Positions 23,632-30,204 of a DNA stretch of 64,000 nucleotides are shown in pieces. The stretch is taken from contig NZ_CP011409.1 in the NCBI RefSeq assembly GCF_001267925.1, positions 4,464,001-4,528,000 of the forward strand, read 5' to 3'. This DNA is from Herbaspirillum hiltneri N3 (GTDB taxonomy: Bacteria > Pseudomonadota > Gammaproteobacteria > Burkholderiales > Burkholderiaceae_D). Numbering within the stretch: the stretch's first letter is position 1; every line of letters begins with the position of its first letter. The translations under genes and the position numbers were made by a program. The notes beneath the pieces are model-generated. The model did no database searches and was not told the origin of the DNA. It saw only the letters and a list, made by a program, of their open reading frames with translations.

Positions 23632-23714
23632 GCGCAGACATTGTCTGCACCTGCCCCGGAGCAAGTCGGGACGTGGCGAAAGCCATCGCGACGGGCATAG
23701 TAAAATCGCGGACG

Positions 23715-24650
23715 ATGAACAAGATACCGACCGACAGGCAAGGGTCGCCGGCCCCCTCCCGATCAGCCCGACTGCTGCCGCCACGGCCGGACACACCTCT
23801 GTCGCCGGAAGCTGCGCTCGCCAGAAAACAGGCCCGCGAACAGAAAGACGCCCAGGTGCGCGGGGTCGCCTCGATCGCGGACATGCGCGAGGCCATCCGG
23901 CACGCGAGCCGCGGCCTGCCTCCCCTCTCCGAAGTACCGCGCGTCGGCGTCCTCGACGCCGTTGCATTCAATGCGCAGGCAGCGAAAGGCCTGCCGTTCA
24001 TCATTACCGATCTGGTCGAAAAATGGCCGCTGTGCGCACTGACGCCGCAAGACCTGCGCGAAGATTTCGGCGAGCTGCAGGTGCGCGCGCGGGTCGGCGA
24101 TTACGTCAACACCGCGTTCGCCACCGACCGCGCGATGCAGGACATGCCGCTGCGGGAATATCTCGATCTGGTGGCCGACGCCGATGCGGATCCCGGCTTG
24201 CCGCCGTACGTGGGCAATCTGGAAATGCGGGCGCTGAACAGGCTGTGTCACTGGCCGGCCTATTTCAGGAAGATGGGGCCGCCGCGTTTCTGGCTCGGTC
24301 CTGCACGCACGGTGACCCCGTTGCATTGCGACTACGACGACAACATCTTTGCGCAGATCCGCGGCGCCAAGCGCATCTTTCTGGCGCCACCGCATCACGA
24401 TGAATTCCTCTATCCGCGCGAGGCCAACGCTATCCTGTTCGGCTCGCCCTTCGATCCCGAAGCGCCGGATTTCGACAGGTTCCCACTGGCGCGCCAGGCG
24501 GCGCTGACCGAATGCATCGTGCAAGCGGGCGAATTGCTGTATGTGCCGGCGGGCTGGTACCACCAGGTGCGCGCGCTGACGTTTTCGCTGTCGGCCAATC
24601 GCTGGGCCAGGGCGCAGCCGCTGGTGTTGAGCGGCGCCGCCCCGGCGTGA
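23715..24650 (+). CDS. JmjC/cupin-8 type Fe(II) dioxygenase
   Basis: About 311 residues; the C-terminal ~200 are a cupin-8/JmjC fold with PRFWLGPARTVTPLHCDYDD (HxD of the iron site), GAKRIFLAPP and ELLYVPAGWYHQVRAL with the distal His. Such enzymes hydroxylate proteins or tRNA-modifying substrates using 2-oxoglutarate. The N-terminal ~90 residues are Ala/Arg/Pro-rich. Start 23715 is chosen because no ribosome binding site or conservation supports the GTG at 23673. It lies tail-to-tail with the Slam-like gene, 7 nt apart. Confidence 0.75.
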   Translation: MNKIPTDRQGSPAPSRSARLLPPRPDTPLSPEAALARKQAREQKDAQVRGVASIADMREAIRHASRGLPPLSEVPRVGVLDAVAFNAQAAKGLPFIITDLVEKWPLCALTPQDLREDFGELQVRARVGDYVNTAFATDRAMQDMPLREYLDLVADADADPGLPPYVGNLEMRALNRLCHWPAYFRKMGPPRFWLGPARTVTPLHCDYDDNIFAQIRGAKRIFLAPPHHDEFLYPREANAILFGSPFDPEAPDFDRFPLARQAALTECIVQAGELLYVPAGWYHQVRALTFSLSANRWARAQPLVLSGAAPA

Positions 24651-24657
24651 ACGCCCT

Positions 24658-26076
24658 TCAGAACTGCATCTGCACGCCCAGATTGGCCATGTTGCGGCGG
24701 AAGTAGCCGTAGCCGATGTTGGAAGGATTGTCGATGTGCGTGTACTGCGCACGGATCACCATGTTGCGTCCGGCGTAGCGGCTGACGTCCCACAGCGCCG
24801 AAAGCGAACCGATCACCTGGCGATCAATGCGCGGCTGGTCGAACAAGGCCATCGCCTGGTCGTAGCGCACATCGGTGTAGCTCAGATTGGCGCCGAGCAG
24901 CACATCGGGATGAACGCGATATTGCAGGTAGACGCTGGGACCGGACAGGCGGCGTGAATACACCGCGGCGCGGGCCTGCTCGCGCTGCCACAGATATTCG
25001 CCGCCGACTTGCAGATTGGGCGTCAGTTGCGCGATCGCGCCCATGCCGCCCTGCCAGGTATCGGCATCGCGGCTGCTGTCGGTGTGGACGACGCGTTTGG
25101 CATAGCCGCCGATGGCGGTCAGCGAGACCGTGTCGTTGAGTGCGTGCGCAACACGGCTCACCAGGCCCGGCGACGTTTCCTGCAAGCGCCCGTCGAGACG
25201 CGAGTAGCGCACGTTGGGCTGCAGACTGGCGGACCAGGCCTTGTCGCTATAGACCAGCGCGCTCGCCAGCGTGGTGCTGTCGTTGTTGTAGTCCTGCCGA
25301 TCGAAGTAACCGGTGCCGAACCATGCCGCCTGGAACAGCAGCGAGAAACGCTCATCCAACCGTACCGCGTAGCTGCCGTTGAGTCCCAGGGCGGCGCCTG
25401 CCGATTTGCGCGGCATGGCCTCTTCCACCAGGTCGAAAGTGACCGGAATCCCGCCAATGACGGCCGGCACGCTGCGCGAGACCGGACCGGCATTGGTGTT
25501 GTCGTCCCAGGTCATGCCCATGTACAACTGCAACGCCCATGGCTTGTCCCTGGAACCCAGGCTGGCCGAGACCGGATCGTTGGGGCGCAATTGCGCCGAC
25601 AGCTGATCCAGCATCGCGCGCGCCTGGCCTTCGCTGGCGCCGGCGGCCTCGGTCAGCAAGGTCGCAGCATCCGCCTGGCGTCCCATGGCCAGATACAGCC
25701 CGGCCAGCTCGATCCTGGGCGCCGCAGCGCCGGGAGCCAGCGCAACGGCGCGGCGATAGTATTGCTCGGCCTGCGCGCGCGCATGCGTGGCGCTGGAACA
25801 GCGTCCCAGCAGCAGCATGCGTTCGGCTTCGGTATCGTCCTGCGGCAGCGTGTCGCGCAGCAGCGCGCAGGCCAGGTCGGGACGTTTTTCGGCGAGGGCG
25901 CGACGCGCGAACGCCAGCTCCAGCGCATTCTGTTCGCGCAGCGCCGCTTGCCGCCCGCCGGCATCGGCATCGCTCTGGGCACGGGCGGGATGGATGACCG
26001 CTGCAAAGCACAGAGTCAGACACAACGCGCGCGGCACGGCGCGATGTAGGGACGACCGGGAAAGAGATGCGCTCAT
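24658..26076 (-). CDS. Slam-like outer-membrane protein (type XI secretion)
   Basis: A 472-residue outer-membrane protein. It has a signal peptide (cleavage after HPARAQ), an N-terminal TPR domain (about 40-170: ALELAFARRALAEKRPDLAC; AEQYYRRAVALAPGAAAPRIELAGLYLAMG) and a C-terminal ~290-residue beta-barrel ending in MQF. The barrel starts with LYMGMTWDDNTN and contains NPSNIGYGYFRRN. TPR plus ~14-stranded barrel is the surface lipoprotein assembly modulator (Slam, DUF560) design that exports proteins with TbpB-like barrels. The gene directly upstream encodes just such a cargo, with the start codon 2 nt after its end. Confidence comes from architecture plus neighbour. Confidence 0.8.
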   Translation of the reverse strand: MSASLSRSSLHRAVPRALCLTLCFAAVIHPARAQSDADAGGRQAALREQNALELAFARRALAEKRPDLACALLRDTLPQDDTEAERMLLLGRCSSATHARAQAEQYYRRAVALAPGAAAPRIELAGLYLAMGRQADAATLLTEAAGASEGQARAMLDQLSAQLRPNDPVSASLGSRDKPWALQLYMGMTWDDNTNAGPVSRSVPAVIGGIPVTFDLVEEAMPRKSAGAALGLNGSYAVRLDERFSLLFQAAWFGTGYFDRQDYNNDSTTLASALVYSDKAWSASLQPNVRYSRLDGRLQETSPGLVSRVAHALNDTVSLTAIGGYAKRVVHTDSSRDADTWQGGMGAIAQLTPNLQVGGEYLWQREQARAAVYSRRLSGPSVYLQYRVHPDVLLGANLSYTDVRYDQAMALFDQPRIDRQVIGSLSALWDVSRYAGRNMVIRAQYTHIDNPSNIGYGYFRRNMANLGVQMQF

Positions 26077-26077
26077 G

Positions 26078-27484
26078 TCAGCGCTGCGCCTTGTACGAAC
26101 CTGTTCCGGTCAATGAGCCGCCGCCGTTCTGCATGGACCAGCTGCCGGCCAGTCGTTCGCCCGTCGGGCCGTAAAAGCGGCCGTTCATCACGAATCCGGT
26201 CACCGCTTGCCCCCCATACGTGCCCGACATCGAGCCGCCGAGGTAGCCGCCCAGCAGCGATAGCGTAAAGGTCGTGCTGCCCTGGCCGTTGGCGAAAGTA
26301 ATGCTCCCCGGGACAACCGGAGCGCCGCTCTTGATCGTCGCGAAATCGACCGTGGCCTGGAAGGTGCCGCTCACGCTCGCGCCCGAGTTGAGCGTACCGC
26401 CGACCGGACCGGTATAGGTGGCTTGCATGGACGTCGGAAAGCTCGCCAGCGGCGTGACCATGTTGGCCGTGACATAAGCGAACGACTGTTGTTGGGCTGC
26501 GTTCGCGGCGGCCTGCTCCTGCCGCTGTTGCAGCAATGCGGTATTGGTGTCGCTGCTGCTCGCTACGGCGCCGGCGAGCATGGCCGCCTGCAATGCCGCC
26601 GCTACTCCCGCCGGTGCGGTGGCAATGCCTCCCGCGCTGATCCCCACGGCAGCAGCGGCGCTGCCTTGGCCCAAAGCCAGATGCGCCGCGACCTCGCCGG
26701 GCGTCGCCGGTGCGGCGTGGGATGTTTCGCCATCGCCGAGCAAGGCAAGCAGCTGCTGCCGGCGTGGCGCCGGGGGTGCGATTTCAGGCGTGAGCGACGA
26801 TTGCGATGCGGTCCGCAGCTCTTGTCTTATTTCTTGTTTCGCTTCTTGCTGCAGGTCTTGTTTTGTCTGTTGAGCCTGTTGCGTTTGCGGCGTTTGCGGC
26901 GTTTGCGGCGTTTGGGATGTTTGGGATGTCTGTTGCGCCTGCTTTGTCTGCTCTTGTTTCGTCTGCTCCTGCGCCTTCACCTGTTGTTGCGGTTGTTTCA
27001 GTGTTTCCTTGAGCTCCTGCTCCTGTTGCACCGTCTGCTGCGATTCCTTCGTTGTCTTTTGCTGCCCGGGCTGCCCCTGCTGCTCCTGCTGCTCTCGTTT
27101 CGCCAGTTGCTGCCCGGCCTGCTCCTGCGCCGTTTGCTGTTCCTGCTTCGTTCGTTCTTGCTGTTTTATCTTTTGCTGCAGCCGTTCCAGGGTTTCCTTG
27201 AACTGCAGAGCTTCCTTCTCCCGTTGCTGTTGCCCTTGCTTCGTTTGCTGACCGGGATCGGCATTCTGGAGTTCTGCGCGCTGCTGCTGGATCAGCGAAA
27301 AAATCGACGTCAGCTCCATCCCTTCCATGTTCACCGGCGATGCTCCTGCCGGAACCTGCGCCGGCGCTGCGGTCGCCAGCGCCATCAACGGCAAACCCAG
27401 CGACAGGCGGATCATTGCAGGAATACGCAGTGCGGATCCGCTGTGACGAAGCCCCCGGACGTGCGGCTGACGAGTGGTTGGCAT
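26078..27484 (-). CDS. Gln-rich Slam cargo with TbpB-like C-terminal barrel
   Basis: A 468-residue exported protein. The AGGGGAG ribosome binding site fixes the start at 27484. A signal peptide ends near ATAAPAQ, with no lipobox Cys, so it is soluble rather than a lipoprotein. Residues ~55-235 are an extreme Gln/Lys/Glu-rich coiled-coil or disordered stretch (QTPQTPQTPQ, KQEQTKQAQQTSQT), ~240-335 are Ala-rich, and ~340-468 are a beta-barrel whose end (GRFYGPTGERLAGSWSMQN..G.GSYKAQR) matches the TbpB-type barrel found in Slam/T11SS cargos such as HphA. The Slam gene follows 2 nt later. No haem- or metal-binding motif is seen, so its ligand is unknown. Confidence 0.75.
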   Translation of the reverse strand: MPTTRQPHVRGLRHSGSALRIPAMIRLSLGLPLMALATAAPAQVPAGASPVNMEGMELTSIFSLIQQQRAELQNADPGQQTKQGQQQREKEALQFKETLERLQQKIKQQERTKQEQQTAQEQAGQQLAKREQQEQQGQPGQQKTTKESQQTVQQEQELKETLKQPQQQVKAQEQTKQEQTKQAQQTSQTSQTPQTPQTPQTQQAQQTKQDLQQEAKQEIRQELRTASQSSLTPEIAPPAPRRQQLLALLGDGETSHAAPATPGEVAAHLALGQGSAAAAVGISAGGIATAPAGVAAALQAAMLAGAVASSSDTNTALLQQRQEQAAANAAQQQSFAYVTANMVTPLASFPTSMQATYTGPVGGTLNSGASVSGTFQATVDFATIKSGAPVVPGSITFANGQGSTTFTLSLLGGYLGGSMSGTYGGQAVTGFVMNGRFYGPTGERLAGSWSMQNGGGSLTGTGSYKAQR

Positions 27485-27561
27485 GCTCTCCCCTTGAATT
27501 GCCGATAGCGGCGATTGTTTTCTGTGGGCATCATGCTAAAACCGGGCGGGACGGGGGTAAA

Positions 27562-27577
27562 TACTGCATTTGTAGTA
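27562..27577. promoter_or_regulatory. 7-2-7 inverted heptamer, candidate response-regulator site
   Basis: TACTGCA-TT-TGTAGTA (within a 22-bp near-palindrome 27559-27580) has the 7-2-7 arrangement of NarL-family binding sites. It lies 78 bp upstream of the cargo start at 27484 and 63 bp downstream of the response regulator's stop codon. The adjacent NarL-type regulator is the obvious candidate to bind it. Confidence 0.55.
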
Positions 27578-27639
27578 TTTGCCGCGGCTGCGGTGATTAA
27601 GAACCTGTTCACGATCCCGTCGCCGGTCGCGAACGGGCT

Positions 27640-28266
27640 CTAAGGCGAAGGGGCGAACAGGTTGCTGCGCAGGGCGTAGGCGGTGACTTCGGCGACGTTG
27701 TGCAGCGACAGTTTGACCATCAGGTTCTGGCGATGCTTGCGCACCGTCAGCACCGACAGATGGAGCCGGGCGGCGATGTCGTTGCTGGAAGCGCCTTGGG
27801 CGATGAGCGCGAGGACTTGCTGTTCGCGCGCGGTGAGGGCTGCCGGCACCGGCGGTGACGGCAAGTCCGTCATGCTGCCGAGCCCCTTGCTGAGATAGAC
27901 GATGCCCGACAGCACCAGGGAAATCGCGTGCAGCAGTTCATCGGCATTTTCATGCTTGAGCACATAGCCGTCGGCGCCGGCCTCGAAAGCCGCTCGCACC
28001 GATGCAGCGCCGGGGCTGCCGGTGAGGATCAGCACGCGCACGTTCGGCAAGGAGGCCTTGATGCGCCGGGTCAGCTCGATGCCGTGCAGGCCGGGCAGGT
28101 CGAGATCGAGCAGCAGCAGGTCCGGCTGGTGTTCGCGCAGCAGCCGCTCGACCTCGCCGCCGTCGCCGGTGTCGGCCACCACGCACAGATTCGGCCGCGT
28201 CGAAACAAGCAATTTGAGACCGTCGCGAATGATCGCGTGATCTTCCGCCAGCACTATGTTTTTCAT
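27640..28266 (-). CDS. NarL/FixJ-family response regulator
   Basis: A 208-residue two-domain response regulator. The receiver domain (1-120) has the acidic pocket at AEDH, the phospho-accepting Asp in LLLLDLDLPGLHG, and the Lys in GYVLKHEN. The LuxR-type HTH is at ~143-200 (LTAREQQVLALIAQGASSNDIA, then VLTVRKHRQNLMVKL). It is divergent from the hybrid histidine kinase at 28387, which should phosphorylate it. On its own strand the Slam cargo and Slam genes follow, so it may control their expression. Confidence 0.9.
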   Translation of the reverse strand: MKNIVLAEDHAIIRDGLKLLVSTRPNLCVVADTGDGGEVERLLREHQPDLLLLDLDLPGLHGIELTRRIKASLPNVRVLILTGSPGAASVRAAFEAGADGYVLKHENADELLHAISLVLSGIVYLSKGLGSMTDLPSPPVPAALTAREQQVLALIAQGASSNDIAARLHLSVLTVRKHRQNLMVKLSLHNVAEVTAYALRSNLFAPSP

Positions 28267-28386
28267 TCCCGCCTTCTCCCCAGCAAGGCAAGCCCGCGCT
28301 CGCGCCTGTTGATCAAATGAGTTCTACAGTAAACTGCCTTGCAACCCGGCAAGCCTGCCGCCCGTAGCCAACGGTATCCCACCACA

Positions 28387-30204
28387 ATGACACGCCTGCT
28401 CCCCACCCAGGACCGCTCAGTGTATCTGGAACTGGTCAATACGCTGTATCGCCAGTCGCCGCCGATCTTCCTCGGCAATGCTGCGGTGGCGGGCCTGACG
28501 ATGTTCCTGCTGTGGAACGAAGTGGCTCATGCCGCGTTGCTCGGCTGGGCGGCGGCGATCTATCTGGTCACCGCGCTGCGCATCGTGCTGGTGTGGCGCG
28601 ATCGCCGCAGCCTGGGCACCGCTGCAGAGGCCACGACATCGCGCCGTTGCTGGCGCTACGTCGCGTGGGCGGGCGTATCCGGCTGCCTGTGGGGCGCAAT
28701 GGGGCTGCTGTTTTTCTCTCCCGAGAATACCATCGTGACCGTCTACATCTGCATCGTGCTGGCCGGCATGACCGGCGGCTCGGTGGCGTCGCTGTCGTCG
28801 TTCTGGCCGGCCTATTACGTCTATGCCCTGCCGACGGTGCTGCCGTTCGCCATGCGCTCGTTTGCGCACGGCACCCATCTGTTTTCGGTGCTTGGCGTGC
28901 TGTCGCTGTTCCTGCTGGGCGTCAACCTGGCGTATAGCCGGGTGATCCAGCGCACCGTGCGCGACGCCATTGCGCTGCGCTTCGAGAACAATGCCCTGAT
29001 CCGCCAGCTTACCGAAGAGAAGGAACGCGCCGAACAAGCCAATCGCAGCAAGTCGCAGTTCCTCGCCGCGGCCAGCCACGACTTGCGCCAGCCGGTGCAT
29101 GCGCTCGGCCTGTATATCGCCACCCTGCGCACGGTGGCCCAGGCGCCGCATATCGAGCCCGGCACGGTCGACATGCTGGCCGGCCGGTTGCAGTCGGCGC
29201 TCACCGGCATGTCGCAGTTGCTGAACGTGCTGCTGGATATTTCGCGCCTCGATGCCGGCGTGGTGCGGATCGAAAAACACCGCTTCAGCGTGCAGGAAAC
29301 CTTCACTCTGCTGGCCAACCAGTTCGCCCAGGCCGCAGCCGCCAAGGGCTTGCAGCTCAAGGTCAGGCCCACCACGGCCTGGCTCGACACCGATCCGGTG
29401 TTGTTGCACAACATCCTGGCCAACCTGCTCTCGAACGCCGTGCGCTATACGGAAAACGGCAAGATCCTGCTCGCCTGCCGGCGCCGCGGCGGCATCGACG
29501 GCGAGGCGCTGGAGATCTGCGTCATCGATACCGGCGTGGGTATCGCGGTCGATCAGTTCGCGCATATTTTCCGCGAGTTCTACCAGGTCCACAACATCGC
29601 CCGCGACCGCGAGCAAGGCCTCGGACTGGGACTGGCGATCGTGCAGCGCACCGCCCAGCTGATCGATGCGCGCATCGGCCTGCGCTCCGTCCCGGGCAGA
29701 GGCTCGTGCTTCTCGCTGCGCCTGCACGGGCCTCTTGACGCCGCGCCGCCGGACGTTCAGCCCGCTTTTGCCACCCCGGCTCCCGTCGCCAGCGCTTCCG
29801 CCACACCGAACGCCACCGTGCTGGTGGTCGACGATGACAAGCAGGTGCTCGACAGCATGCAGATCCTGTTGCACAGCTGGGGTTACACCGTGCTCTTCGC
29901 GCGTTCGCTGGAACAGGCGCTGGCGGCACTGCACGACGACGCGCACCGGCCGGACCTGGTGATCAGCGACTTCCGCCTGGCCGATAACGTCACCGGCATC
30001 GATGTGATCCGCGCCGTCTTTCAGGCCACCGGCGACGAGGTCCCGGCCATCATCGTCACCGGCGACACCTCGCCGCAAGGCATCGCACTGGCCAGCGCCA
30101 GCGGCTATCAGGTGCTGCACAAGCCGCTGGACCCGCAGCAACTGCGCGCAGCCATCTCGCAGCTGCTGCTGGAGCCGCGGCATCGGAGCAGTGAGCGGGA
30201 CTGA
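28387..30204 (+). CDS. hybrid sensor histidine kinase/response regulator
   Basis: A 605-residue membrane kinase. The N-terminal ~190 residues hold about six hydrophobic helices and no periplasmic domain. A short coiled coil is followed by the phospho-acceptor helix FLAAASHDLRQPVHALGLYI, the HATPase domain (NILANLLSNAVRYT, VIDTGVGIA, GLGLGLAIVQRTA), and a C-terminal receiver (VLVVDDDKQVLDSM, phospho-Asp in LVISDFRLAD). ATG 28387 is preferred over TTG 28339. It stands divergent from a NarL-type regulator 120 bp away, so the two form a signalling pair. Signal unknown. Confidence 0.9.
   Translation: MTRLLPTQDRSVYLELVNTLYRQSPPIFLGNAAVAGLTMFLLWNEVAHAALLGWAAAIYLVTALRIVLVWRDRRSLGTAAEATTSRRCWRYVAWAGVSGCLWGAMGLLFFSPENTIVTVYICIVLAGMTGGSVASLSSFWPAYYVYALPTVLPFAMRSFAHGTHLFSVLGVLSLFLLGVNLAYSRVIQRTVRDAIALRFENNALIRQLTEEKERAEQANRSKSQFLAAASHDLRQPVHALGLYIATLRTVAQAPHIEPGTVDMLAGRLQSALTGMSQLLNVLLDISRLDAGVVRIEKHRFSVQETFTLLANQFAQAAAAKGLQLKVRPTTAWLDTDPVLLHNILANLLSNAVRYTENGKILLACRRRGGIDGEALEICVIDTGVGIAVDQFAHIFREFYQVHNIARDREQGLGLGLAIVQRTAQLIDARIGLRSVPGRGSCFSLRLHGPLDAAPPDVQPAFATPAPVASASATPNATVLVVDDDKQVLDSMQILLHSWGYTVLFARSLEQALAALHDDAHRPDLVISDFRLADNVTGIDVIRAVFQATGDEVPAIIVTGDTSPQGIALASASGYQVLHKPLDPQQLRAAISQLLLEPRHRSSERD

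Follow-up and report, generated by a model that had tools for sequence, protein, structure and literature searches.

A candidate type XI secretion pair of Herbaspirillum hiltneri N3 with a Gln-rich cargo, a neighbouring two-component system and a conserved upstream palindrome

What does a Slam-type outer-membrane protein export when the protein encoded next to it combines a C-terminal barrel with a long Gln-rich arm, and what controls the pair? The question is raised by a locus of Herbaspirillum hiltneri N3, whose 4.97 Mb genome consists of a single contig (NZ_CP011409.1). The window analysed here is a stretch of 64,000 nucleotides (positions 4,464,001 to 4,528,000), to which all coordinates below refer unless a locus is named. 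We consider it rather probable that the locus represents a two-gene type XI secretion system (T11SS, Slam) unit with its own two-component system, the product being an unlipidated and probably adhesin-like surface protein. The relevant features are:

26078–27484, minus strand: cargo gene, 468 amino acids, no cysteine, unlipidated (open reading frame and profile searches)
24658–26076, minus strand: Slam/T11SS outer-membrane protein with TPR and SlipAM barrel, 472 amino acids (Pfam matches)
27559–27580, no strand assigned: 22-bp palindrome, candidate operator, one mismatch to AAATACTGCANNTGCAGTATTT, lying 74 bp upstream of the cargo ATG and 20 bp upstream of TAGCAT
27640–28266, minus strand: LuxR/NarL-type response regulator, receiver and GerE (Pfam), beside the locus in 10/10 loci
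28339–30204, plus strand: hybrid histidine kinase, HisKA, HATPase_c and receiver (Pfam), beside the locus in 10/10 loci

The cargo ATG is preceded by a good ribosome-binding sequence and the C-terminal part of the protein has 17 database homologues, in agreement with the initial annotation, which had singled out this reading frame as a Slam cargo candidate. A Slam gene does follow, separated from the cargo stop codon by 1 nt (TGA-C-ATG) instead of the 2 nt given before. Its product scores 30.3 bits against PF04575 (SlipAM, DUF560; cut-off 22) and 25.7 bits against TPR_19 (cut-off 25), the latter marking N-terminal TPR repeats, while the TPR_Slam model reaches only 10.8 bits of a cut-off of 35.2. 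Within the genome it is the sole PF04575 match and the neighbour of the sole TbpB_B_D match, the cargo, which stays below the cut-off. The SlipAM cut-off is also passed by all four further Slams of the same family that were scored; a search of solved structures with the Slam barrel gave no match.

The cargo is divided as follows:

27356–27484, minus strand: apparent Sec-type signal sequence, about residues 1–43 (by eye from the sequence)
26819–27289, minus strand: Gln-rich stalk, residues 66–222 (composition count)
26462–26770, minus strand: linker and Ala/Gly-rich segment, residues 239–341, with G272 and G274 invariant in alignment A1
26084–26425, minus strand: eight-stranded C-terminal barrel, residues 354–467 (AlphaFold2 and Foldseek)

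A barrel had been proposed for residues 340–468, and the lack of such a fold had been named as the outcome that would speak against it. AlphaFold2 places eight strands between residues 354 and 467, with block means of the predicted local distance difference test (pLDDT) of 72–96, the mean for a first full-length run being 46. Foldseek groups the predicted barrel with those of TbpB, NHBA and fHbp, and the match to HphA has an E-value of 1.2e-3. The profile search suggested for both genes confirmed DUF560, whereas TbpB_B_D aligned to residues 351–461 with 20.5 bits, below the 26-bit cut-off. The relatives behave alike, nine of ten matching this model at E 0.1 or better and none exceeding the cut-off (highest score 25.4 bits); for the homologue P0015, PF01298 is present in the precomputed domain list. 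The FYGP..ERLAGSW end noted earlier corresponds to residues 437–449, and all 13 aligned proteins share G439, P440, A446, G447 and W449. Between residues 231 and 353 no handle or pedestal strands of at least three residues are predicted, in line with the proposed absence of a ligand-binding handle, although pLDDT is low in this region and the model was derived from only 17 sequences. A lipobox cysteine is missing, the protein being cysteine-free. Searching the genome contigs with P0015 gave no match, and a further protein search returned 14 proteins, none of them additional.

A transmembrane anchor in the Ala-rich segment was considered and rejected, given that the best 19-residue hydropathy is inconsistent and varies between 1.16 and 2.06 across 18 proteins (1.58 in the window protein). 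An SLH-like segment ahead of the barrel can be recognized by eye in the N-termini of Herminiimonas-type cargos (L006, L018, L019 and L020), and no SLH domain is claimed for the window protein. Over five scanned cargos, the SLH profile listed only L018 (19.2 bits against a cut-off of 20.8, E 0.0012).

The association of these genes extends beyond the window. Among 294 sampled genomes of the family the Slam protein was found in ten, belonging to two of 44 genera, and in all ten, which are related to each other and thus do not provide independent counts, the barrel cargo adjoins Slam with kinase and regulator alongside. Domain searches place the HisKA/HATPase_c kinase and the receiver-GerE regulator side by side in the window and in the relatives. 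In the window the regulator lies upstream of cargo and Slam on the same strand and the kinase is divergent from it; across the loci the order kinase-regulator-cargo-Slam is found at five and cargo-Slam-regulator-kinase at the other five. Within the genus, barrel and PF04575 mark the same six of 34 genomes, and the kinase is found in these six and in genome G142. Family-wide it occurs in 13 of the 294 genomes, including all ten with Slam; G142, G183 and G062 keep it without Slam. An order-wide sample gave a match in the own genome only (1/399). The barrel is present in 11 family genomes; the eleventh case, a weak hit in G023 (E 1.3e-6), is a different kind of protein and is not counted among the ten. 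This protein (L089, 1480–2955), from another genus of the family, exceeds the TbpB_B_D cut-off with 40.1 bits and displays a lipobox-like start and TGGTN repeats.

The initial annotation mentioned neither the two-component system at 27640–30204 nor the palindrome at 27559–27580. The latter was first spotted by eye upstream of the cargos and then scanned for. It precedes 11 of 11 cargos, with 0–2 mismatches in ten and four in L020, and its distance to the start codon stays within 70–79 bp in all of them; ten simulated 64-kb sequences contained no palindrome at up to four mismatches. Exactly 20 bp downstream, a −10-like hexamer TAnnnT is found in 11/11 cases, compared with a window background of 0.0033 per position. 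The site would therefore lie over the −35 region, a placement as for an activator. At locus L005 (4224–7159), where two tandem Gln-rich cargos are followed by one Slam, each cargo has its own palindrome.

Allowing up to three mismatches, the own genome harbors a single site, which is the cargo promoter. At this threshold the palindrome is present in 12 of the 13 kinase-bearing genomes (18 sites in total), the thirteenth, G127, being the four-mismatch case. It was found in one of 20 kinase-less genomes of the genus tested (out of 27), and a reversed-pattern control gave 0/33 genomes. This distribution suggests that the regulator binds the palindrome.

Of the 18 sites, ten lie ahead of T11SS cargos, and the other eight are situated near an inverse autotransporter (G142), autotransporters (G161, G183), an OEP protein (G150), FeoA and Cupin_8 genes (G252), an emptied cargo place (G183) and, as judged by eye, an ECF-type sigma gene (G062). 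TAnnnT stands at 20 bp in three of these eight, namely at the G161 autotransporter, the emptied G183 place and G062; its absence from the remaining five, among them the site before the Cupin_8 orthologue of G252, implies that some of these may not work. In G183, cargo and Slam are gone from between the same flanks (L042, 4806–5418), leaving 612 bp with no remnant, and the palindrome with its −10-like element is retained as an orphan promoter. The same gap contains a 73-residue Ala/Lys-rich reading frame with a signal-like start. In G142 (L034, 4817–11960) the place of cargo and Slam next to the kinase-regulator pair is taken by a two-partner secretion pair, an adhesin of 1071 residues and a ShlB-type transporter. 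As a palindrome-controlled replacement this pair was rejected, there being no palindrome at up to six mismatches in L034; the sole site of G142 is about 12.7 kb away from the kinase, before the inverse autotransporter. In G062 (L043, 977–9236) the kinase-regulator pair lies beside a FecR-domain protein of 935 residues and a barrel-like reading frame of 617 residues without Pfam match.

In three relatives the same 22-bp palindrome is thus found upstream of type V autotransporter or inverse-autotransporter adhesins. These are unrelated proteins with an unrelated secretion route, and the likeness is one of functional analogy only; nevertheless, the common operator lends indirect support to the adhesin-like role suggested before. 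Taken on its own, an adhesive role falls just short of an even chance; its grounds are these three cases and the fact that no handle is predicted. More tentatively, the two-component system of Herbaspirillum and Herminiimonas may govern a programme of surface adhesion through a single palindromic operator, in which adhesins of different secretion types can replace one another. In most genomes the adhesin would be a stalked, unlipidated T11SS protein lacking a handle; elsewhere its part would be played by autotransporters or an inverse autotransporter. If so, type XI secretion would be one interchangeable adhesin route in environmental bacteria and not mainly a means of nutrient capture.

In the proposed mechanism, the hybrid kinase would sense some cue and pass phosphate to the LuxR-type regulator, which would bind the palindrome, positioned over the −35 region, and activate a single transcript comprising cargo and then Slam. 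The cargo would cross the inner membrane by Sec without lipidation and be held unfolded in the periplasm, until Slam exports it after recognition of the C-terminal barrel. Once outside, the barrel would fold and the 157-residue Gln-rich arm would project, the likely task being attachment or self-association. The export steps involving the holdase Skp and the Slam translocon are borrowed from TbpB (PMC9090332).

The arm had been described as a Gln/Lys/Glu-rich stretch of about 180 residues in coiled-coil or disordered form. Such a stretch is present at residues 66–222, though with a length of 157, and contains 38% Gln, 12% Glu, 10% Lys, 4% Arg and 8% LIVMFWY at a net charge of +1; the cargo sequence shows neither an Arg cluster nor EEARKA repeats. 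Helices are predicted at 82–136 and 146–186 with moderate to low confidence (AlphaFold2), and a fully helical stalk would be about 24 nm long. A canonical coiled coil is unsupported for the window stalk, 82 of 500 shuffles scoring as well. For P0004, P0005 and P0007 only 15–35 of 500 shuffles did so, for several other relatives nearly all. A lone helix or disorder is possible for the window stalk. A PDB sequence search gave as best rows coiled-coil chains aligning to the low-complexity stalk, and the source annotation calls P0004 'chemotaxis protein histidine kinase CheA', a name that evidently stems from the low-complexity stretch.

Relatives with 96–98% identity over residues 300–468 vary in length (e.g. 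430, 459 and 468 residues), and the stalk DNA carries short 9-bp repeats. Gln-rich runs reach 28 residues or more in 20 of the 24 cargos scored. P0015 and L020 are entirely without stalk and P0008 and P0012 have runs of 27 and 23 residues, respectively, by a score that is crude, since P0012 scores 23 and its near twin P0010 scores 62. The stalk is a rapidly changing low-complexity region ahead of a conserved barrel, and it does not define the family, being absent from P0015 and L020.

This bears on the earlier view that known cargos all bear handles and that the window protein constitutes a new type, which is too strong. Cargos with a disordered N-terminus (group 1: 196 lipoproteins, 8 soluble) or with Pls-like helical repeats (173 lipoproteins, 20 soluble) have been predicted (PMC12282271), and NHBA combines a hairpin and a barrel with a disordered N-terminus (PMC7857515). 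The predicted cargos share with the window protein the long helical-repeat or disordered N-terminus, the C-terminal barrel and a Slam-type gene nearby. However, they are mostly lipoproteins, the Pls-like ones contain EEARKA repeats, and their disordered or helical regions precede a handle, none of which was seen in the window cargo. NHBA (GNA2132) of Neisseria likewise follows the broad plan of disordered arm and barrel, but it is lipidated and carries, besides the hairpin, an Arg-rich stretch that binds heparin, in contrast to the cysteine-free cargo with its Gln-rich arm. Its dependence on Slam is disputed, being asserted in PMC7857515, whereas it was unaffected by Slam1 in E. coli according to PMC5500766. 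Overall, the observation made in the initial annotation is confirmed with corrections and its interpretation partly supported.

Haemophilin/HphA-type soluble cargos resemble the window cargo in being unlipidated, with a single C-terminal barrel and a Slam neighbour, but possess a haem-binding N-terminal clamp (PMC8560813), the strands of which are not predicted here. The same T11SS unit might accordingly release a soluble binder akin to unlipidated haemophores, in which the arm would be no more than a spacer or decoy and the barrel loops would hold the ligand site. The missing cysteine, the poor conservation and occasional loss of the stalk (P0015, L020) and the established soluble single-barrel cargos of subcluster 1B (PMC8406197) would suit such a product. 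Against it stand the lack of predicted handle strands, the absence of iron or TonB genes among the products examined around the locus (the whole window was not annotated) and the operator common to autotransporter-type proteins in relatives, so that we regard it as unlikely, if worth keeping in mind.

That the kinase-regulator pair is a mere old neighbour controlling something else, with cargo and Slam regulated separately, would explain why G142, G183 and G062 retain the kinase without Slam and why the only G142 site lies so far from it. It is nonetheless improbable: the linkage persists through a change of gene order, the palindrome tracks the kinase (12/13 versus 1/20) even in Slam-less genomes, and the sole site of the own genome is the cargo promoter. 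A polysaccharide porin of BBP2/EpsL kind with the barrel protein as periplasmic or matrix partner, not exported by Slam, is very improbable, for the match over the BBP2_2 cut-off (26.1 versus 23.7 bits) and the weak EpsL match (27.1 bits, cut-off 275) are outweighed by the higher SlipAM score, which also passes, as in 4/4 further Slams, and by the partner's barrel class, known from T11SS cargos.

For the unit favoured here, a T11SS pair under its own two-component system, the new element is the regulation, since neither a dedicated two-component system nor an operator appears to have been reported before. In the literature searched, which is sparse in subscription papers, a Slam with either was not met, and no paper was found combining Herbaspirillum with DUF560 or 'surface lipoprotein assembly'. 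The main text of PMC12282271 mentions no two-component system, histidine kinase, response regulator or LuxR, and titles and abstract openings of the literature found show no link between Slam and a histidine kinase. With cargo and Slam paired one-to-one in most genomes next to a predicted regulator and operator, export substrate and switch are both testable by a few deletions. Moreover, the operator names candidate regulon members in relatives, and the handle-less cargo would show whether export needs anything beyond the barrel.

On the far side of the pair, the end of a Cupin_8 gene (23673–24650) lies 7 bp from the stop codon of Slam. This gene was found in 30 of 34 genomes of the genus, and its presence hence does not track Slam.
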